Of a DNA stretch of 64,000 nucleotides, positions 1,056-17,015 are shown piece after piece. Position 1 is the first letter of the stretch, and each line of letters opens with the position of its first letter. Source of the stretch: Stratiformator vulcanicus (GTDB taxonomy: Bacteria > Planctomycetota > Planctomycetia > Planctomycetales > Planctomycetaceae); assembly GCF_007744515.1 (NCBI RefSeq), contig NZ_CP036268.1, positions 2,457,712 through 2,521,711 of the forward strand, given 5' to 3'. Below the pieces are notes generated by a model, which was not told the DNA's origin, made no database searches, and saw only the letters and a list, made by a program, of their open reading frames with translations. The position numbers and the translations under genes were made by a program.

Positions 1056-1652
1056 CTATGTCGTGCCGACAGCTTCGGATGCTTGCACCTGCTCGTCGGC
1101 CTTCGCAGCTCCGCCGCCGCCCCAGAAATCGCGGGCCCAGTGGGTCTGAACCCGCCGCTGCTGACCGTTCCAATTCAGCAGATCGTAGAGCAATTGATGG
1201 TAGTCGAAAGGCTTGTCTTTCGACTTCAGGAGCGAAACGACCTGTCTCAATCGATGCGGAAGGTCTTCACGGTCGGAATTCAGCAGCGCGACCAAACGTT
1301 TCTCGACGCCAGACCCCTCCGCCTCCCGCGGATCGTCCAGCGTATCTCGAAGTGCCCGGCCGATTGAGATGTCCTTGGCATGATGCTTTCCGGAGGTCGC
1401 CCCGCCTTGTTTCATCGCAAAGAGTGAAGCGACCAGCGCGTACCACTCTAATTCGCAATCAGGATCATCGTCGGTATGTCGCAGGACAAAGCGATCACGC
1501 AGCGGAGCCGCGCCGAACGGCTTACCGAGTCCGCCTCTTAATTCGGCGAGCGTTCGCCGGGAGGAGGCGTCATTCGCTCTGGCACCCTTTCGGACTTCGA
1601 TGAGCGAAAGCAGTTGTTTGACGAATGGGTAGTTTTGCAGTTGGCGTCTCAT
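1056..1652 (-). CDS. cse2: Cse2/CasB (Cas11e), Cascade small subunit
   Basis: Small alpha-helical subunit present as a dimer in Cascade, which stabilises the crRNA-DNA hybrid and the displaced strand. The 198-residue length fits the family (about 160-200). The C-terminal QLLYDLLNWN and VQTHWARDFWG motifs are typical of Cse2, as is the Arg-rich, helical N-terminal half. Its ATG overlaps the cse1 stop codon by four bases (ATGA), implying translational coupling. The C-terminus ends in a short Gly/Ala-rich tail. Function is assigned from family motifs and position between cse1 and cas7. Confidence 0.93.
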   Translation of the reverse strand: MRRQLQNYPFVKQLLSLIEVRKGARANDASSRRTLAELRGGLGKPFGAAPLRDRFVLRHTDDDPDCELEWYALVASLFAMKQGGATSGKHHAKDISIGRALRDTLDDPREAEGSGVEKRLVALLNSDREDLPHRLRQVVSLLKSKDKPFDYHQLLYDLLNWNGQQRRVQTHWARDFWGGGGAAKADEQVQASEAVGTT

Positions 1653-3256
1653 GCAGCATGCTCCCCGCTAGTCGGCTCAACGTAGCTCTCAAGGAGCTTG
1701 TGTAATTTCATCCCCGGGTACCCTCGGCCTTTGTGAACGGCTTTCAGGATGCGAGCCGAACTTCCGAGCGGCACGACGGCATCGCTAAAGGCACTCCAAG
1801 CCGTGCGTCTCACGGGGCCGTGAACCCAACGCGCCAGTGCGACTGTATAAACTTCGTGCTCCGCCTGCTTATCGATTTCAGCAAGCCGTTCGAAGAATTG
1901 ATAGAAATGCTCTTCCAGTCGCGACCAATAGAGCCGGTCGGGGGCGAGTCGATTCGCCATCGCCGTGACGGCGGACGCGTCGGGCGATCGGGTCCCGAAG
2001 GTTAATGATTCCCCGGCAACGACGCGGGCGGCCCGTTGTAACGTGAGTGCGACATCTTCCGCCAACCTGAGTGCTTCGCCCAGAAATTCGACGAGACGGC
2101 CTCCCTTGGTGTATCGCACCGGGAGCGGAAGCACGTCGTATCGCCAAGCGAAGACCTTGGCATTTGTGTTCTTAAGGCCCGTAACCGCTAGTCGGAAGCT
2201 CATCTCGTCTGGAATGATACCCTCGTGCACAAGCTCACGGACAAACTTTAACGTTGCCGGGCCGTGGTAAGTGGTTCCTTTTTGCGACTGCTCGCGGTCG
2301 AAATGGAACAATGCTTCGCTGTCCCGCCAGACGGCCCGGTCCAAGTCCAGTCCGATTTGTTGCCGACGTTTGTCGGTGACATAAGCTGAAAATGGTTCGC
2401 TTGTCTTGTCGGCAAGTTCGATCGTTCTTCCCATCGCGAACGCCATCTGCCTGACTTTCAGCTTTCCGTCGTCGACCTCGGGAATGAGCCGCACTTTGCG
2501 ACTCACGGCAGTCAGGTGGTCGAGCAACCCCCGCGGCCGTCGCGTCTGAGCCTTCGCCGGTGTGTCAAGCTCCCAATTCGGCTGTCCTAATTTCGCGAGT
2601 TCCACGGCTTCATCTTCGATGATCTCCGTGGGCAGCAGATTTAAGAGGATCGTTTCGAAAAGGTTTTCCCCCAGAAGCTGAAAACAAAGTCCACGTGCTC
2701 GCACCGTTTGCAGATAGCCGCGACCTCCACTGATGGCGAACGCCTGCAGGGCGATTAATCGGCGAGCTGCCTCCGCCGGATCAATTGGATTTGCCGGAGT
2801 ATGCCGACTCGGACTGCGGTCGTGGTGAAACAGCGAGTTGATCGGTTCGGTGCCTGTCAACAGCTTGTTCATTCCGTCGAGCGTGCTCGCCGGCCCGTCG
2901 ATCGGCAGCGACGCATCCTGCAGAAACGGATGGTGCGGATGAAACAAGTCGAACCGCTCTTGCCACTGGTCCAGATAGTTTTCGACCGTTTCCTTCGGCA
3001 GCCGCCCCGCGTTCCAGAGTTCCCGCCAGTCGTCAAAACTCTGCGGGCCGTCGATCGCTCGATGAACGATGGCAAGGAGCAATTGCAATGACGCTGCGGT
3101 GACAAGCGGCGACTCGTCGCGGAGTTGGTCAATATTGTGGGCTTCAAGCAGTGCCTCTCGAAGTCCAGCGTCGCGCATTTCTCCGTCTCTTGAGACCGGG
3201 AGCCAAGGTTGATCGATCAGGTCGAAGGTTGGAGCAGCTTTGACAAAATCAGACAT
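1649..3256 (-). CDS. cse1: Cse1/CasA (Cas8e), Cascade large subunit
   Basis: Large subunit of type I-E Cascade. It recognises the PAM, helps open target DNA and recruits Cas3. The 535-residue length fits the family (about 500-560). The N-terminus carries FDLIDQPWLPV, the standard Cse1 start, followed by the conserved LFHPHHPFLQDASL segment and a central FAISGGRGYLQTVRARG stretch. It overlaps cas3 by eight bases upstream and cse2 by four downstream, so these three genes are almost certainly co-translated. No truncation is visible. Confidence 0.95.
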   Translation of the reverse strand: MSDFVKAAPTFDLIDQPWLPVSRDGEMRDAGLREALLEAHNIDQLRDESPLVTAASLQLLLAIVHRAIDGPQSFDDWRELWNAGRLPKETVENYLDQWQERFDLFHPHHPFLQDASLPIDGPASTLDGMNKLLTGTEPINSLFHHDRSPSRHTPANPIDPAEAARRLIALQAFAISGGRGYLQTVRARGLCFQLLGENLFETILLNLLPTEIIEDEAVELAKLGQPNWELDTPAKAQTRRPRGLLDHLTAVSRKVRLIPEVDDGKLKVRQMAFAMGRTIELADKTSEPFSAYVTDKRRQQIGLDLDRAVWRDSEALFHFDREQSQKGTTYHGPATLKFVRELVHEGIIPDEMSFRLAVTGLKNTNAKVFAWRYDVLPLPVRYTKGGRLVEFLGEALRLAEDVALTLQRAARVVAGESLTFGTRSPDASAVTAMANRLAPDRLYWSRLEEHFYQFFERLAEIDKQAEHEVYTVALARWVHGPVRRTAWSAFSDAVVPLGSSARILKAVHKGRGYPGMKLHKLLESYVEPTSGEHAA

Positions 3257-6053
3257 TCTTCGTCCTTTCCATCAGCACCCCGCGCAGCCGGTCATACCGC
3301 AGTGCGAATCGACCATTCTGGTATTGGCCCCCATCGCTCAGAATGCAGGGGCGGTGGTAGCGTAGGGCACCACTTTTCTCCCACCCTGATGGAACGGGCT
3401 GCCGTGAGAAGTGGCCGCACCAATGATTTTGGCTGAGAGAGACTGAACTTTTCAGTAACGCTTTCACTTGTGCGAGCGACGGACGCAATTCGAGATCAAT
3501 CGCCTTGTGATCCGCGATCAGAGCGACTGCTCCTGCGATCTCTTGGAGAAGCACGATCGACACCGTCGCGTCGATCTCCCGCGTTCTGGCCCGCAGTGAA
3601 TCGTGGGTCGTAGGATCGTCCTCGTCGAGTCCGAGCGATCGCTGTTTCAAGAGCCGAGTGTAGTCTGGGGCCATGATCAAGCCGCCCGCCGCATTCGCGC
3701 AGCTCTCGCTGCGTTGTTCCTCGAGCGCCTCGCGACTCTCCCGCAACACCGCCCCCCACTCCTGCGGCACCTCGCCCCAGTCGTCTGCATAAACCGCCTC
3801 CACTAGCGGCTCGATGTCGACCGGCAATGCGATCTGCGACCGCTCCTTTAATACTAGCCATGTCCTCAGCAAGACGTGGCGGGCGTAGACCCCCTTGCCA
3901 TTACCGTCGTCCTCGAAGCTGCCGAAACTCGGTACACCCGACGCGCTTAATTCAGTCGGCTCGACCAACAGCAGGCGAGGCGTCTGTACTTGCTCCGGCC
4001 GGGGCGTTCGGAAGTGTCGGTGCAGGCGGCCTGCCCGCTGCAACAAAAGGTCAACCGGAGCCCATTCCGAAATCATCAGATCGAAGTCAAGGTCGAGACT
4101 CTGCTCGATCACCTGTGTCGCGACGAGCACGCAGCGCGGCCGGGTCCCTTCAAATTGGACTGACCCCGTGCCCGTCTTTATCGCCTCGCCTTTACCGAAC
4201 TTTCGCAGCACGGCCTCTTCAATCTGCTGTCTGCGACCAAACGGAAAGCGGGCGTGAAACAGCAACAGGTCACCCTCGGGAATCGGATCGTTCCTCGACC
4301 AGTCGTCCGGCAGATCGATCGGACTGAAACCGGCAGCGCACAGATCATCAAATAACCTCTGTGCGGACCCCACGGTATTGCAAATCACCGCCGCACATCC
4401 GCCACCGGACAATGCTTTCCCCAATTGTTCCGCGAGACCCGAGGCGGAAACCTCACCGAGCCTGACAGTGCGTTCGAGTGCCTTGTTCCAAGCGAAGTGA
4501 TGAGCCCGAGGCTCGCTCTTCGCATCGGTCACTGAGGTCACCCGCGGATACGCCTCATCGGGAATAGTCACGTCGTCTACGTTCCGGCCTTGCCACGCCG
4601 CAATCAATTCCCGCCTCCGACCCGCGGGCAATGTCGCCGAGAGCAACACCACCGGACTGCCTAAGCTCCGAAGCCATCTCAGCAGTCGTGACTGGATCGT
4701 CGACATATAGGCGTCGTAGGCATGCACCTCGTCGAGGATCACCGTCCGCCCACTCAAGCCCAGCAGCCGGACGAAATGAAACTTCGTCTGCAGAACCGCC
4801 AACATCGCCTGATCGACGGTCCCGACGCCGAACGGGGCGAGTAACGCCTGCCGCTTGTCCGACGCGAACCATGCTTCTGCGACGACCGCTCCGCGAGATT
4901 CATCGGCTTCCTCGTCATCCCCGTAGACTGGATTGAACAGCGCGCGATCCTCCGATCGCCGCACCATCTCTTCGAATGCTTCACTCAACGAAGCGCCGCC
5001 GTGAATCAATTGAAGGTCGATCGACTGGCGGGGATAACGCTCCGCAAGAAAATTCTCGATCCGCGGCAACATGCCGTTGCTAGTCGCCTGAGTCGGCAAT
5101 GCGACATAAAATCCACGCCTGCCGGCAGCATGTTGAAAGACGTCTGCCAGGAAGAGTGCGGCCTCCGTCTTTCCTTCGCCCATCGGGGCCTCGATGATCG
5201 TCAGCGACGGCCGATCGGCGAGTTCAGTCGCAATCTCGGCGACGAATGTCTGCAATGGTCGCGGTTCTGAAATAAACGGAAACAAGTCAGTCAGGCCCAC
5301 CACATCCGCGCGTCCGCCATCTCGATTGAGCCAGCCCGTCGCTTCAACTGCGGACCGGCACCTTTCCTGACTGCCCGCAACGTAGGCTTGCAAGTCGACC
5401 TGAATGCCCGCCGGCGGAAATTGAAGCTTCTGCGAACCGAGCCAATCCGCCACAGAAATTAGCCCGGCCAGGAACAGCCACCACGCTCCGTCACGAGGCT
5501 GTGGCCGATTCAACTCGGCGACCTTGAAGAACCGAGCAAGTTCATCGAGCAACTCGACTCGGCTCGCGTGCCAATCGCGGGCGGATGATTTTACGTCGAC
5601 ATGACTCGGTACGATCCCGTGATGACCGGCTACGACTTGGGAAACCCTCCGTGCTTTCGGTTCCAGCCACTTCAGTGTTTCCACGAGCCAGGGAAGCAGG
5701 GCCCGCCCGCTAATTTCCGCGTGCGGCCTACTTCCGCTCATTTCGGAGAGGCCCAATGATCGGCGAATAGCGTTCTTCTGCGGCTCAGGGGCTCGGCCGT
5801 ACTGAAAGTCGGGAGAGACTTTTCCCACATCGTGAACGGCTGAGAAGAAAGCCGTCCACCGACCTGTCGTCGTTTCGTCAAGGCCGACGCATTCCGACCA
5901 GTGCCGCTTGACCCCCTCGGAAAGCCCCTCATCCCACAACACTTGCGCGCAGCCACCCACGTCGATGCAGTGGCAAATCACCGGGTGAGCATCGTCCGGA
6001 TAGACACCGTCTCTGCCCAACTTCGCCCAAAACTGAGACTGTGAGACGCTCAA
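3249..6053 (-). CDS. cas3: Cas3 HD nuclease-helicase, type I-E
   Basis: Effector recruited by target-bound Cascade; it unwinds and degrades DNA 3' to 5'. The 934 residues contain an N-terminal HD nuclease domain with H28, the H74-D75 pair in AVHDVGK, VAGHHG at 141-146 and ADWLGS near 202. The superfamily 2 helicase follows: Walker A APMGEGKT (289-296), DEVH box (441-444), LSATLPAG (471-478) and the motif VI sequence QRAGRLHRH. All key residues appear intact. The start overlaps the stop of the WYL regulator by four bases (ATGA), and the stop lies inside the cse1 start region, so the gene sits inside a compact operon. HD and helicase domains are fused in the usual order. Confidence 0.96.
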   Translation of the reverse strand: MSVSQSQFWAKLGRDGVYPDDAHPVICHCIDVGGCAQVLWDEGLSEGVKRHWSECVGLDETTTGRWTAFFSAVHDVGKVSPDFQYGRAPEPQKNAIRRSLGLSEMSGSRPHAEISGRALLPWLVETLKWLEPKARRVSQVVAGHHGIVPSHVDVKSSARDWHASRVELLDELARFFKVAELNRPQPRDGAWWLFLAGLISVADWLGSQKLQFPPAGIQVDLQAYVAGSQERCRSAVEATGWLNRDGGRADVVGLTDLFPFISEPRPLQTFVAEIATELADRPSLTIIEAPMGEGKTEAALFLADVFQHAAGRRGFYVALPTQATSNGMLPRIENFLAERYPRQSIDLQLIHGGASLSEAFEEMVRRSEDRALFNPVYGDDEEADESRGAVVAEAWFASDKRQALLAPFGVGTVDQAMLAVLQTKFHFVRLLGLSGRTVILDEVHAYDAYMSTIQSRLLRWLRSLGSPVVLLSATLPAGRRRELIAAWQGRNVDDVTIPDEAYPRVTSVTDAKSEPRAHHFAWNKALERTVRLGEVSASGLAEQLGKALSGGGCAAVICNTVGSAQRLFDDLCAAGFSPIDLPDDWSRNDPIPEGDLLLFHARFPFGRRQQIEEAVLRKFGKGEAIKTGTGSVQFEGTRPRCVLVATQVIEQSLDLDFDLMISEWAPVDLLLQRAGRLHRHFRTPRPEQVQTPRLLLVEPTELSASGVPSFGSFEDDGNGKGVYARHVLLRTWLVLKERSQIALPVDIEPLVEAVYADDWGEVPQEWGAVLRESREALEEQRSESCANAAGGLIMAPDYTRLLKQRSLGLDEDDPTTHDSLRARTREIDATVSIVLLQEIAGAVALIADHKAIDLELRPSLAQVKALLKSSVSLSQNHWCGHFSRQPVPSGWEKSGALRYHRPCILSDGGQYQNGRFALRYDRLRGVLMERTKNV

Positions 6054-7108
6054 GTTTCGCTCCTCGCCAGAGCCTGCGAAGAGGAAATCGAGGCTGCAGC
6101 ATCGTCTTCACCCGAATGAGCTTTCGCCATTCGAATCGCGGCAGTGCGCACCGTCGACTTTAATTCATCCGGCTCCAAGACGATGGCTTGTCCGCCAAAG
6201 CTCATCACGAAGCTTTCGATTTCCTCAAGATCGGTTACCACGAAGACTCCGAGCAGCGACCCGTCATGTTGCGGTTCAAGACGCCTGCAGGAACCCCACT
6301 GGTGTTCTTCGACAAAGCGACGAACCGCAGATTCGAAGCGAATCCGCACGGTGATCGGCGGACCGTCGCTACTGAAGATGCCGAACGAGTTCTTAAAAAA
6401 TCTCTCAGGATCAAAACTTTTCGGCTCTGGAAATGGGAAATTGTCGACATGGACATTGGAAATACGGTCGACCTTAAACGTGCGGATTTCATCGTGCTGA
6501 TGCGACTGGGCGATCAAATAAAACGAGCCTCGGAACTCTTTTAGATGATATGGCCAGACATCATAGGTGAGAGGCTCGGTCGAACGCTGCGACTGATAGG
6601 TAATATGTGTCGTCCGTCGCTCTTCGGTCGCCATCATTAAATCATCGAGTATCGGGCCGTGGCCGGAGTAGTCGCTCGATCGCGTCTGCGAGACACCGAC
6701 CGCTCTCTCGACCTTATCAAGGTAGCGGATCAACGATTCGCCAACTGTCGAACGAATTTTACGGATCGCCGACTCAACGCCCTCCCACAGCGGCGTCCCT
6801 GCAAAAGACTCCATTTTCTTCACGGCGACGTAAATGGACAGCAGCTCCGAAGCGTCGAGCCGCACGTTCGCAAGCCCCTCATCGGCGGCCATTCGCCACC
6901 GTTTTCGACCGTAGGCCTCTTCGATCTCTTCCAACGGGAAACCTGATTGTTGTAGAGCTGAAATGTCTCGCCGGATGGTTTTTTCGCTGGCCCCGGTCTC
7001 GTCCACCAAATCGTTGACCGTCAGCCCTCGTCGACGGGACGAAGCCAGGCGAACAATCAGGAGTTGCCTCGCAATTTGCGTCATGTCGTGGGCGTCACGG
7101 CGTGGCAT
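6050..7108 (-). CDS. HTH-WYL transcriptional regulator leading the cas operon
   Basis: Likely DNA-binding regulator of 352 residues. An N-terminal DeoR/HTH_11-type winged helix (about residues 10-65: LLIVRLASSRRRGLTVNDLV, then ASEKTIRRDISALQQSGFPL) is followed by a WYL domain around residues 165-240 (LKEFRGSFYLIAQSHQHDEI, with FYL in place of WYL) and a C-terminal extension of the WCX type. WYL domains bind nucleic-acid ligands and occur as regulators in several CRISPR loci (family knowledge). It is the first gene of the cas operon and overlaps cas3 by four bases, so it is probably autoregulatory and controls cas3-cascade expression, perhaps also the divergent array. The ligand is unknown. 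Confidence 0.88.
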   Translation of the reverse strand: MPRRDAHDMTQIARQLLIVRLASSRRRGLTVNDLVDETGASEKTIRRDISALQQSGFPLEEIEEAYGRKRWRMAADEGLANVRLDASELLSIYVAVKKMESFAGTPLWEGVESAIRKIRSTVGESLIRYLDKVERAVGVSQTRSSDYSGHGPILDDLMMATEERRTTHITYQSQRSTEPLTYDVWPYHLKEFRGSFYLIAQSHQHDEIRTFKVDRISNVHVDNFPFPEPKSFDPERFFKNSFGIFSSDGPPITVRIRFESAVRRFVEEHQWGSCRRLEPQHDGSLLGVFVVTDLEEIESFVMSFGGQAIVLEPDELKSTVRTAAIRMAKAHSGEDDAAASISSSQALARSET

Positions 7109-7381
7109 TGACCATCTCTCTTTCGAACGTGCAACGCGAGAAGGTTAATCGACAGGGGCGGCAGGGTATGACTTATGCAGATGTTTACCCAATGGTACAA
7201 GCGTTACAACTGTCGGCTCATCGCCAGGTACGAATTCCTCTTGAGAGTTTCGTCTGTCTTGATCAAGGTGAGTTCGGCAAGATCGTATCGGGGGAGTTAA
7301 AAATGGCTCCGGCATCAAGTAGGAGGTCATTGATCTACACAATTTGGTAGTCAGTGATCACCAGCGACACAAGATGCTGGT
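7109..7381. promoter_or_regulatory. Divergent promoter region and CRISPR leader
   Basis: This gap must drive the cas operon leftward and the crRNA precursor rightward. Visible elements are a perfect palindrome CTTGATCAAG (7258-7267), a TTGGT motif (7344-7348) resembling an element of the E. coli type I-E leader contacted during spacer integration, and an inverted repeat CACCAGC/GCTGGTG (7359-7365 and 7376-7382) whose right arm ends on the first base of repeat 1. Leader assignment follows from repeat orientation and from the degenerate repeat at the opposite end. No convincing sigma-70 promoter pair could be fixed by eye. The functional roles are inference. Confidence 0.6.
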
Positions 7382-8386
7382 GAGTTCCCCACGCACGTGG
7401 GGATGAACCGGCCACTGTCGCGATCGTGGTGGAGAACAAGGAGAGTTCCCCACGCACGTGGGGATGAACCGCGACGAAGACAAACGCCGGATCGCGCGCG
7501 AACGAGTTCCCCACGCACGTGGGGATGAACCGGCGATAGCGGACCAACCGTAGAAGCTAAGGCGGAGTTCCCCACGCACGTGGGGATGAACCGATCAAAG
7601 CCGTTCTCGCGAAGAAGCGAGAGGCGAGTTCCCCACGCACGTGGGGATGAACCGTAGTGTCACGGAACATCTTTGAGGACCATCCAGAGTTCCCCACGCA
7701 CGTGGGGATGAACCGGCCACCACCGGTCCGGGATTGTCTGCACCTTCGAGTTCCCCACGCACGTGGGGATGAACCGCTCCCGACCTCGACATCATTGCAG
7801 ATGATGGCGAGTTCCCCACGCACGTGGGGATGAACCGACTCGATCGATGTTCGCGATGTCACTCGTTTTGAGTTCCCCACGCACGTGGGGATGAACCGTC
7901 GCACCTCGACTTCGCCATCGCCGACCCGACGAGTTCCCCACGCACGTGGGGATGAACCGGCCCCGTCCGGGGCTTTGTGCCTGCGGCAGCAGAGTTCCCC
8001 ACGCACGTGGGGATGAACCGCGGACGATGGACCGAGCACGTCGACCGCGGGGGAGTTCCCCACGCACGTGGGGATGAACCGGCTCCGGGGCCAAGTATTA
8101 CGGGAACCGCATCGAGTTCCCCACGCACGTGGGGATGAACCGTTTGTCCGGTTCCAGCTCGATTGCCGGTCGATGAGTTCCCCACGCACGTGGGGATGAA
8201 CCGAACTCGCCCTGGCGGATGCCCGCTCGCGGATCGAGTTCCCCACGCACGTGGGGATGAACCGGCCCGCGAGCGGTTGCTGGACTGGACGAAATGGAGT
8301 TCCCCACGCACGTGGGGATGAACCGGTCGGTTTTTCGTTGCCGCTCAGTGCGATTCTGAGTTCCCCAAACACGTGGGGATGAACCG
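7382..8386 (+). CRISPR. Type I-E CRISPR array, 17 repeats and 16 spacers
   Basis: The 29-nt repeat GAGTTCCCCACGCACGTGGG followed by GATGAACCG recurs with an exact 61-base period, so every spacer is 32 nt. The central CCCCACGCACGTGGGG forms the stem that Cas6e cleaves. The repeat closely resembles the E. coli type I-E repeat in the same orientation, which predicts transcription to the right. Sixteen repeats look identical; the last (8358-8386) has two substitutions (ACGCACG to AAACACG), the expected leader-distal decay. All spacers look different from each other. Several, for example 8265-8296 and 7902-7930, can be read as plausible protein-coding sequence, as expected for phage-derived spacers. 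Confidence 0.98.
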
Positions 8387-10741: not shown

Positions 10742-11926
10742 ATGCCTAGAAGATCAGCAATTCGATGCGAGTTCTTCACCTACCGAATCTTTCAGCGTCG
10801 TGGCGTTTTTTACGCCGATGGAAGGAGTAACAAAACAAATGTTGGAAAGCACTCACTAGGCACCCGTGATCCAGAGGAAGCACTTCAACGACTGAAATTC
10901 CTCGATCGGAAACTTGCGATCGAGTCCGGCCTAGTTCCCGAAGAGGAGGCTACTGCTCATGATCATGGCCCGCTGCCGATCGAAGCAATTTGGGACGCCT
11001 ACTTAAGTGATCGGTCCCGGCCTGCGATTACGGGCGGCGTATCGGATAGTACGGCCAAACGGTACCGGGCCGTGCGAAATAAGCATGCCGATTTCTGCAA
11101 ACAGAAAAGGGTCAACGACTGGCGGCAGTTTGGACAGCACCAATTCATCAGCTACGCAGAATATCTCGACAAGAAGCTAGAACTTGCTCCAAGGACTGTG
11201 GACTTCGAGTCGAACCTTGTTCTCCAAGTTATCAATTGGCTCATCGGGAGTGGTCAGTTGCCAGCGTTGGTGAAACCCAATGTCAAACTCGTCAAGCCGA
11301 CCGGGAGCGACACGTACTGTTTCCGGCCGACAGAAGTGAAATCGATCCTCGAATACTGCCGGAACAATGAAAAGTTGATTTGGATTTATCAATTGATTGC
11401 CGTGCTGGCTTCGACCGGCATGCGGATCGGAGAGGCTCAGAGTCTGCGTTGGACCGACATCGCTCTCAATACCCAGAGCCTGACTGTTCCCGATGAGCGA
11501 GCAAGTCACCGAAAACGCAGGCTGGGTTCAGCACGGACGGCCAAAGGAAAACGCGGCCGGAGTGTACCGCTCGGTTCCAACACTATTCAGATTCTAAGTG
11601 AACTCGATCGACACCAGGACGGCTACGTATTTCACGGTCCGCTGGGCGGTCGTCTCAAGCCCGATACGGTTCGCAATATTCTCGTGCGGGATGTGCTGAC
11701 AATGCTGAAGTCTCGATTCCCGACGCTACCTGGGGACATCGGGTTCGAGCACGGTCGATTGCACAGCTTTCGCCACTACTTTGTCAGCCAGGCCTTCGCC
11801 CACGGGGCGTCAGAGGGACAGGTCAAAGATTGGGTCGGTCACCGGGACAGCGAAATGGTCGCCTGCTACCGGCACCAATTCGACGACGCGAACCGGCAGC
11901 GTATTGACCAAATCCCGTTTATCTAG
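10742..11926 (+). CDS. Tyrosine recombinase / phage-type integrase
   Basis: Site-specific recombinase of 394 residues. It has an N-terminal AP2-like/arm-binding region (about 1-80), a core-binding SAM-like domain (about 80-175) and a catalytic domain with R228 (STGMRIGEAQSLRW), H341-x-x-R344 (LHSFRHYFVSQ), H367 (VGHRDSE) and nucleophile Y376 (ACYRHQF). All catalytic residues are present, so it should be active. The gene points towards the 3' end of the tRNA-Ser-like gene 279 bases away, the classic arrangement of an element integrated at a tRNA. The opposite attachment site was not found by eye. Confidence 0.92.
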   Translation: MPRRSAIRCEFFTYRIFQRRGVFYADGRSNKTNVGKHSLGTRDPEEALQRLKFLDRKLAIESGLVPEEEATAHDHGPLPIEAIWDAYLSDRSRPAITGGVSDSTAKRYRAVRNKHADFCKQKRVNDWRQFGQHQFISYAEYLDKKLELAPRTVDFESNLVLQVINWLIGSGQLPALVKPNVKLVKPTGSDTYCFRPTEVKSILEYCRNNEKLIWIYQLIAVLASTGMRIGEAQSLRWTDIALNTQSLTVPDERASHRKRRLGSARTAKGKRGRSVPLGSNTIQILSELDRHQDGYVFHGPLGGRLKPDTVRNILVRDVLTMLKSRFPTLPGDIGFEHGRLHSFRHYFVSQAFAHGASEGQVKDWVGHRDSEMVACYRHQFDDANRQRIDQIPFI

Positions 11927-14880: not shown

Positions 14881-15627
14881 ATGAACCCTGACTCCTTGTA
14901 CAATACGCTTTCAACTCGAGCAATTGGAGATCTTCTTAGCTTAGCTTTGGCAATGGGTATTGCGGCAGTCGCTTTTACATATATCCGCAGAGCATTGTCT
15001 GACGAAAGTTGGTTGACCAGTTCCGATCTTTGGCGGCAGGTTGTTCTTTTGTTCTCGATAGCACTGTTCTTCGTCTATATAGATATAACCTACGAGATTG
15101 AATTCTACAAAGGCGAAAACAGTGCCGTGAAGAAGATCGAAATTTCAGAGGACATTTTTGAGAAATCTACCTTTCTCCCTCGCATCCGCCTTTTGCTCTT
15201 ACTGCCAATTGATTTGATCGGGATGGGCTTAATGGCTTCGCTCTTCGGTGTCTTGTTGGTGTTTGGGACGAATAAGAACTATTGGTCGGGTCCATCCACA
15301 AGCACTTCATTGGAAGTAATGTATTTGCTTGCCCTCACTGCGTCATGGCATTTCGTGATGATCGGGTGGTGGCTGGTGTATGGGCTGACGGCGCTAGATG
15401 TGACGCTAGCGTTGTGGGATGTGATTCTGCATGCGAGCTTTTCGGTCGTCGAAATAATAACTATATTGATTATCCGCCGCATTCGAAATAGCGACTGGGG
15501 GTTGCGTAACAGCAACTTAGTTGCATGGTCTGCGACGCTCCTCTACTCGAGCGTCTTAATTACTCTTTATGCCGTTCGTCTATGGGACTACTCCACACGT
15601 TTCATTCGGTTAGTAATTTCGAACTGA
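14881..15627 (+). CDS. Multipass membrane protein partnered with a TIR protein
   Basis: A 248-residue protein with about six predicted membrane helices (around 15-35, 50-65, 101-126, 143-168, 170-195 and 215-235). One polar extracytoplasmic or cytoplasmic loop (residues 68-98, charged: YEIEFYKGENSAVKKIEISE) separates the second and third helices. I recognise no family. It lies only 20 bases upstream of the TIR gene on the same strand and shares its low G+C content, so the two are probably co-transcribed and acquired together. It may be a membrane sensor or anchor for the TIR protein; this is inference. Confidence 0.7.
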   Translation: MNPDSLYNTLSTRAIGDLLSLALAMGIAAVAFTYIRRALSDESWLTSSDLWRQVVLLFSIALFFVYIDITYEIEFYKGENSAVKKIEISEDIFEKSTFLPRIRLLLLLPIDLIGMGLMASLFGVLLVFGTNKNYWSGPSTSTSLEVMYLLALTASWHFVMIGWWLVYGLTALDVTLALWDVILHASFSVVEIITILIIRRIRNSDWGLRNSNLVAWSATLLYSSVLITLYAVRLWDYSTRFIRLVISN

Positions 15628-15647
15628 CGTAACTAAGACTGACTACT

Positions 15648-17015
15648 ATGTCGCATATCTTTGTTTCGTACCGGCGAGAAGATAGCAATTGGGCGACCGA
15701 CCGCCTTATAGGAAAATTGCGAGAGCGTTTCGGACAAGGTTCAGTCTTTCATGACATCGATAGTATCGAGCCAGGCCATGATTTTCGCGATGTTCTTGAG
15801 GAGCGACTTTCATCCTGCTCGATTCTTCTTGTGGTCGTAGGTGCCGGTTGGGCTAATGCAACTGATCGCCACGGAAAACGACGGCTGACTTATTCTGACG
15901 ATTGGGTCCGCGTTGAGATCGAGACAGCGCTCTCAAAAAAAGATGTTGTAGTCATTCCGGTAGTACTCAGGCCAGCAGTGATGCCGCAAGTCGATGAGGT
16001 ACCGGCCTCGCTGGCCGATTTCTGCTTTCGACAAGAACTTGCAATATTTCCCGGGAGTGACTTTGAGATCGGATTTTCAAAATTGGTCCGGTCTATTGAT
16101 CGGGTCTTACGATCTAAAGGTATTCAATTAGACGGAGATCGTTATAGGATGGAGCGTGGTGTCCGACGAATAGGGCGACGGTCGCTAAAGATCGGCGTCT
16201 TTATCTCACTCGCAACGGTTTTTGTTATCGTCGCGGCGGTTTTCGCTCTTACACGTGGCTTCGAATTTACAGGTGTAACTGTTGGCGAATCGCAACAGGC
16301 GAGTGAGGCCGACCGCAAAGACCTTGACCGCGTCGTTAAGAGATTTACTTCTAACCCAATTGTTCCGCGTCGCGAGTCTTCAGTTGAGGAGCGTGAAGTG
16401 TTGGCGTTAGGCCGACCAGATTACTCGAATTTCGAAATTCGCTTTGATGAACGCATTTGGAGTTTCCAACATTTTGATCCCAAAACAGTTACAGAATCGT
16501 CGAGCTATGTATCTGCGATGATTTCGGATCGAACATTGCTTATGGTCAAAACATCTCCAGTTAAGCAGCTCCGGTTTCAATCACGAACTACTGGAAAAGA
16601 CTTGGTGTTTTCTCCGAAGGCCGGATGTCCGCCGAGTCACGTAGAATCAGACGGAAGCCTCGTTGACACAGGGATTTTCCGGACAAGATCGAAACATCTT
16701 TGTTTCGATGTATCGCAGATCGAGATCAACGAAGAGTTTTCGATTACATATCGGACCATCTACTGGGACGCGGAAGAAGAAGAGGAACCGTGGTTCGGCG
16801 CGATGAGTTATGCAGGTTGTTTACGAATGAGAATCATAGCAATCGGATCAGAGCCAAGTTTTTTTCGAAACGTTGAACGTAAGAAATGCAGTAGTTTTGA
16901 TTCGCCGTTGGAGGACTGCCATGATGGAGTATATGTCACGAATGATGATGACTCGGCATTTCTATGGAATATGCCTGATCCAGAGCCATTTAAGATATAT
17001 ATGTTTTTCTTTTAA
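15648..17015 (+). CDS. TIR-domain protein with one transmembrane helix and unknown C-terminal domain
   Basis: Residues 1-155 are a bacterial TIR domain: HIFVSYRREDSNWATDRLIG, FHDIDSIEPGHDF, LLVVVGAGW and DDWVRVEIETAL, where E90 is the likely NADase glutamate. A membrane helix follows (about 181-203: LKIGVFISLATVFVIVAAVF). The last 250 residues match nothing I know and have an Asp/Glu-rich C-terminus. The predicted topology is a cytoplasmic TIR with an extracytoplasmic sensor-like domain. Bacterial TIR domains of defence systems (Thoeris, CBASS, short pAgo) cleave NAD+ or make signalling nucleotides; whether this one does is inferred. Its immediate partner is the upstream membrane protein. The low G+C content suggests recent transfer. 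Confidence 0.85.
   Translation: MSHIFVSYRREDSNWATDRLIGKLRERFGQGSVFHDIDSIEPGHDFRDVLEERLSSCSILLVVVGAGWANATDRHGKRRLTYSDDWVRVEIETALSKKDVVVIPVVLRPAVMPQVDEVPASLADFCFRQELAIFPGSDFEIGFSKLVRSIDRVLRSKGIQLDGDRYRMERGVRRIGRRSLKIGVFISLATVFVIVAAVFALTRGFEFTGVTVGESQQASEADRKDLDRVVKRFTSNPIVPRRESSVEEREVLALGRPDYSNFEIRFDERIWSFQHFDPKTVTESSSYVSAMISDRTLLMVKTSPVKQLRFQSRTTGKDLVFSPKAGCPPSHVESDGSLVDTGIFRTRSKHLCFDVSQIEINEEFSITYRTIYWDAEEEEEPWFGAMSYAGCLRMRIIAIGSEPSFFRNVERKKCSSFDSPLEDCHDGVYVTNDDDSAFLWNMPDPEPFKIYMFFF

Follow-up and report, generated by a model that had tools for sequence, protein, structure and literature searches.

The gene pair and its surroundings

The window, that is the whole 64,000-nucleotide stretch of Stratiformator vulcanicus DNA analysed here, carries two open reading frames on the forward strand which are separated by 20 bp. 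The upstream frame (14881–15627, +) specifies, as judged by hydropathy, an orphan polytopic membrane protein of 248 amino acids with about six transmembrane segments, while the downstream frame (15648–17015, +) encodes a 455-amino acid protein in which a TIR domain, one transmembrane (TM) helix and a β-sandwich follow one another (ORF, Pfam and hydropathy data). The first-pass annotation, made from the nucleotide sequence without database searches, had placed both frames at these positions and in this orientation, and had described an A+T-rich island around them. This is indeed what is found: between approximately 14750 and 17000 the G+C content is 0.43–0.50 compared with 0.55–0.65 in the flanking genes, and the GC3 values of the two genes (0.55 and 0.44, respectively) fall below the 0.60–0.81 of their neighbours. 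The base composition of the pair is foreign-looking. Among 2000 Markov-1 islands of the same composition an ORF of at least 248 codons arose twice, and one of at least 455 codons never. Promoter and terminator signals for the pair did not exceed those in shuffled sequence.

A type I-E CRISPR-Cas locus (1649–8386, −), which the first-pass annotation did not mention, lies 6.5–13 kb upstream of the pair. It comprises genes for Cas8e (1649–3256), Cas3 (3249–6053) and a WYL regulator (6050–7108), together with a CRISPR array of 61-nt period (7382–8386). The same annotation had reported that no Thoeris, CBASS or pAgo partners adjoin the pair, and none does. A tyrosine recombinase (integrase) was recognized by family match at 10742–11926 (+). 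A mobile element built from this integrase was considered and rejected: there is no tRNA gene and there are no clear att sites or convincing flanking repeats nearby, and a carbonic anhydrase gene and a 382-amino acid ORF, which we take to be ispG, intervene between the recombinase and the pair.

The six hydrophobic segments of the 248-residue protein bear out its description as a polytopic membrane protein. It has no family in Pfam (E up to 10), PADLOC or NCBIfam, and the best PHROGs match is at chance level (E 0.11). No relative was found among 99 relatives, plasmids and viral contigs, in 294 genomes from the same phylum, where the best match was partial (E 0.0075), or among the ORFs around 67 homologous loci. 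The single-sequence AlphaFold2 model was uninformative (pLDDT 52). Six other TIR-TM proteins and a further TIR fusion (L086, described below) have no same-strand polytopic membrane gene within about 100 bp. Since these searches gave the protein no relative, and no counterpart at the related loci, the conserved two-gene system of TIR and membrane protein that had been proposed is not supported; lack of conservation in other genomes was among the outcomes that the first-pass annotation itself had named as refuting it. The upstream gene may be a locus-specific accessory (an anchor, a channel or an immunity-like partner) or may be unrelated to its neighbour.

The 455-residue protein and its C-terminal domain

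Residues 4–115 (15657–15992, +) of the larger protein match Pfam TIR_2 (PF13676) with an E-value of 2.6e-12 and 47.7 bits, the curated cut-off being 28. Residue 90 (codon 15915–15917, +) is the Glu of WVRVEIETAL and aligns with the Glu of SARM1 DWVHKEIVTAL, which is the catalytic residue of SARM1. Judged by this alignment, the active-site Glu of a catalytic TIR NADase is present as E90, the residue that had been singled out as likely catalytic, and the domain is probably an NAD+-cutting enzyme. Matches to Thoeris ThsB and type III ThcB4 cover the TIR part only (residues 3–64 and 4–63; ThcB4, 40.9 bits against a cut-off of 220), and no qualifying match places the protein in Thoeris or any other PADLOC system.

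There is a single helix at residues 182–200 (16191–16247, +; hydropathy 2.74), with eight Lys or Arg residues in the 20 positions before it and one after it. Because of this distribution the positive-inside rule puts the TIR domain inside and the C-terminus outside; on the charge rule alone, then, a cytoplasmic TIR domain and a C-terminal domain beyond the membrane are predicted. The TIR-TM-C-terminal domain layout of the first-pass annotation stands, with TIR_2, the helix and a domain of some 245 residues.

This last domain (model residues 210–455, HMM match 211–455; 16275–17012, +) was delimited by profile searches, AlphaFold2 and fold comparison. It is a real domain of about 210–245 residues which has no Pfam name. 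A search with the C-terminal 249 residues gave matches (E 1.1e-19 to 3.7e-10) in five genomes other than that of the window; each match lay at the C-terminal end of a Ser/Thr-kinase protein and followed a membrane helix. A profile of these five kinase relatives revealed further relatives with other N-termini, and a 14-sequence profile detected the domain in 60 of the 397 Planctomycetia genomes, spread over 34 of 185 genera. As no more than six candidates were scored in each genome, these are minimum figures. Its position is C-terminal in nearly all relatives. Profile-profile comparison gave a full-length relation between the classes (P 1e-14 to 2e-9), including that of the kinase/TIR group with the patatin group (P 1e-14). 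On the Phycisphaerae side (the class of G153, as we infer its name) the domain is present in two of 198 genomes. A two-pattern group-alignment scan of approximately 85,000 species yielded nine loci, eight of them planctomycete by title, including Limnoglobus roseus, Gemmata sp. and Roseiconus nitratireducens, and one labelled "Bacterium isolate". A single-sequence scan of genome contigs with the domain gave no match, viral contigs did not contain it, and the window's own copy was not found on plasmids. The literature searched, to which most subscription papers did not belong, held no description of the domain or of its sharing by planctomycete TIR, patatin and kinase proteins.

Modelled with 14 relatives in AlphaFold2, the domain is all-β with one N-terminal helix (pLDDT 88.2, pTM 0.86). 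The closest folds are the β-sandwich of Ost1/ribophorin I [7oci_A; Z 12.2, 2.8 Å over 157 residues] and the N-domain of the M1 aminopeptidase LTA4H [Z about 10, 3.5 Å over 164 residues], values moderately above the background of Z 7–8 stated by the tool. Identity in the fold matches is 4–13%, and no PDB sequence matched below E 1. The resemblance of the model to ribophorin I and the M1 N-domain is one of fold only and shows no function; the window domain has a β-sandwich in common with the lumenal domain of the former and the N-domain of the latter, but nothing in its context points to a peptidase or to OST.

The copy in the window has diverged from the family. At four positions (D272→S, R274→Q, P401→S and W455→F) it has lost residues found in 89–95% of members, and through the first, second and last of these it departs from the family signature, a DLR motif and a C-terminal WxW; its assignment to the domain is by whole-profile match, by single-sequence match to the kinase relatives (E 1.1e-19) and by C-terminal position. 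It also sits on a long branch (1.98). Given the lost residues and the long branch, its ligand or function may differ from that of other members, or may be decaying.

Partners of the domain and relatives of the TIR-TM protein

Scanning of 66 proteins revealed patatin phospholipase (37), Ser/Thr protein kinase (15), TIR_2 (two), EAD8 (one) and α/β-hydrolase-like (one) partners, as well as at least four XRE-type HTH fusions, a fifth (L116) being weaker. Stand-alone copies of the domain are also present, one of them in Limnoglobus roseus. Almost all patatin and kinase fusions have a TM helix ahead of the domain; there is none in five HTH fusions (L116, L123, L124, L126 and L128), which resemble one-component regulators, nor in the second TIR fusion (L086:4301–5569, G662). 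The latter, at 422 amino acids, is a natural soluble version, and it keeps the signature residues at the aligned DLR and WDW positions. The EAD8-TM-domain protein (L121:5518–6750, G620) provides a direct link to the described effector-associated domains (EADs).

In a tree of 64 domains the partner type changes eight times where the minimum is six, which indicates that partners were swapped several times, mostly long ago. Apart from close relatives, the loci have no conserved gene neighbour, and most of the domain-bearing genes adjoin housekeeping genes.

In bacterial signal transduction a domain common to kinase, HTH and effector outputs is, by established reasoning, an input domain. With so many outputs attached to it, the C-terminal domain is best read from its pattern of partners as an input module, binding or oligomerising. 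The HTH fusions and the one TIR fusion which have no membrane helix indicate that it is not strictly external, and the idea of an external sensor in all cases was dropped on their account. Of the external sensor proposed for the window protein, the part that agrees with the charge-rule topology and the input-module pattern stands.

The TIR-TM chassis itself occurs with other C-termini. In the same genome a paralogue (L002) is 39% identical over the TIR domain, and it belongs to a tight same-strand run (G000:C1, about 414.3–417.6 kb; L002, L034) of ThsB_TIR, Nmad2, the TIR-TM-X gene and a 249-amino acid gene whose product begins with what resembles a signal peptide. This run is a candidate defence operon and leans towards a defence setting for the chassis. 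Two proteins of G033 (L159:1503–3035 and L161:552–2588) join the same TIR, through a TM helix, to the planctomycete domain DUF1559 (SBP_bac_10).

A proposed receptor-like TIR effector and its alternatives

Prokaryotic conflict systems that include TIR domains, and EADs as a class, have been described (PMC7159879, PMC8195603). SpbK and other TIR systems contain an additional domain that recognizes the trigger and makes the TIR domains oligomerise, so forming the active site (PMC12847820). Starting from the observed layout, family relation, shared module and intact E90, we propose a one-protein, receptor-like TIR effector, a reading to which we would give about an even chance; a putative defence role is likely. 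The cytoplasmic TIR domain would be kept inactive while the protein is dispersed in the membrane. The β-sandwich beyond the membrane would bind a ligand or a protein partner and thereby cluster the protein, so that TIR domains meet and together build a composite active site that includes E90; clustering is proposed because other domains bring TIRs together in characterised systems (PMC12847820). NAD+ would then be cleaved, and the cell stopped or a nucleotide signal made. Phage or envelope damage would be the likeliest class of trigger. We count in favour of the proposal the multi-output domain, E90, the L002 run, the DUF1559 relatives and the CRISPR-Cas locus 6.5 kb away, and against it the loss of the signature, the long branch, the TM-less copies, the lack of conserved neighbours and the kinase fusions, which suit ordinary signalling as well as they suit defence.

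The TIR-TM protein might instead act in the physiology of its own cell (envelope stress, surface attachment or the cell cycle), the domain being a general planctomycete input module, as would suit the predominance of membrane patatins and Ser/Thr kinases across many genera, the frequent housekeeping neighbours and the regulator-like HTH fusions. The window copy, however, lies in low-G+C, foreign-looking DNA near CRISPR-Cas, TIR domains and EADs are components of conflict systems, and TIR fusions are rare (2/66); we regard this explanation as rather unlikely. Somewhat less probable still is that the C-terminal domain is an oligomerisation device or membrane-proximal scaffold rather than a sensor, with the trigger cytosolic or coming from the upstream membrane protein. 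Its occurrence with and without a TM helix, the β-sandwich with no obvious catalytic set and the binding or structural roles of the matching folds all fit a scaffold, but it is typical of ligand-input domains to be attached to HTH and kinase outputs, and the sequence divergence between classes is large.

A true two-gene system like type II Thoeris, in which the TIR protein would make a nucleotide signal and the polytopic protein disrupt the membrane, would account for the common strand, the 20-bp gap and the shared foreign composition, and type II Thoeris does use TM-macro effectors (PMC12847820). The membrane protein, though, contains no macro or other nucleotide-binding family and has no counterpart at any related locus, and a Thoeris TIR would not need a TM helix and outer domain of its own, which makes this reading improbable. 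We think it slightly more improbable that the pair is decaying or recently imported and has no current function. Such a history would explain the missing signature residues, the long branch, the orphan partner and the unusual composition; against it, both frames are open far beyond chance, the TIR domain is intact with E90, and TIR, helix and C-terminal domain are all kept in one frame.

The receptor-like reading can be extended, more speculatively and with doubtful prospects, to a planctomycete-specific immune input domain with interchangeable outputs (TIR, patatin, α/β-hydrolase, kinase and HTH) in membrane and cytosolic forms, the window protein being a transmembrane TIR receptor which senses attack from outside. 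Such a domain would be a bacterial analogue of receptor families with a common ectodomain. As it is, an uncatalogued domain family links three effector classes of immunity (TIR, patatin and hydrolase) with kinases and one-component regulators, and the ligand of any one member would tell what many such planctomycete proteins sense. If the layout of the window protein is right, it would be a TIR protein from a bacterium with the architecture of a transmembrane receptor.

Comparison with known systems

The TIR-TM-X proteins of Pirellulaceae-type planctomycetes, L002 and the DUF1559 proteins of G033 among them, have the same TIR subfamily and membrane helix but end in other domains; the domain of the window protein was absent from all 35 other loci read. 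SpbK of Bacillus ICEBs1 (PMC12847820) is likewise one protein in which a TIR domain is joined to a second domain, and there the second domain senses the trigger and clusters the TIRs into an active NADase. In SpbK, drawn as a soluble dimer or filament, it is the N-terminal domain that senses the phage portal protein, whereas in the window protein the partner domain is C-terminal, lies behind a membrane helix and has another fold. Type II Thoeris (TIR ThsB and TM-macro ThsA) resembles the pair in that a TIR gene adjoins a membrane-protein gene; in the pair no macro domain was found, the TIR protein is itself membrane-anchored, and the pair is not conserved. The EAD conflict systems of Kaur et al. 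(2020/2021; PMC7159879, PMC8195603) offer a parallel to the sharing of one non-enzymatic domain by many effectors, TIR domains and kinases among them. EADs differ in being small adaptors, helical for the most part, of which a core ATPase component carries a second copy, whereas the domain described here is a β-sandwich of about 210 residues, with no core partner seen in the local neighbourhoods.
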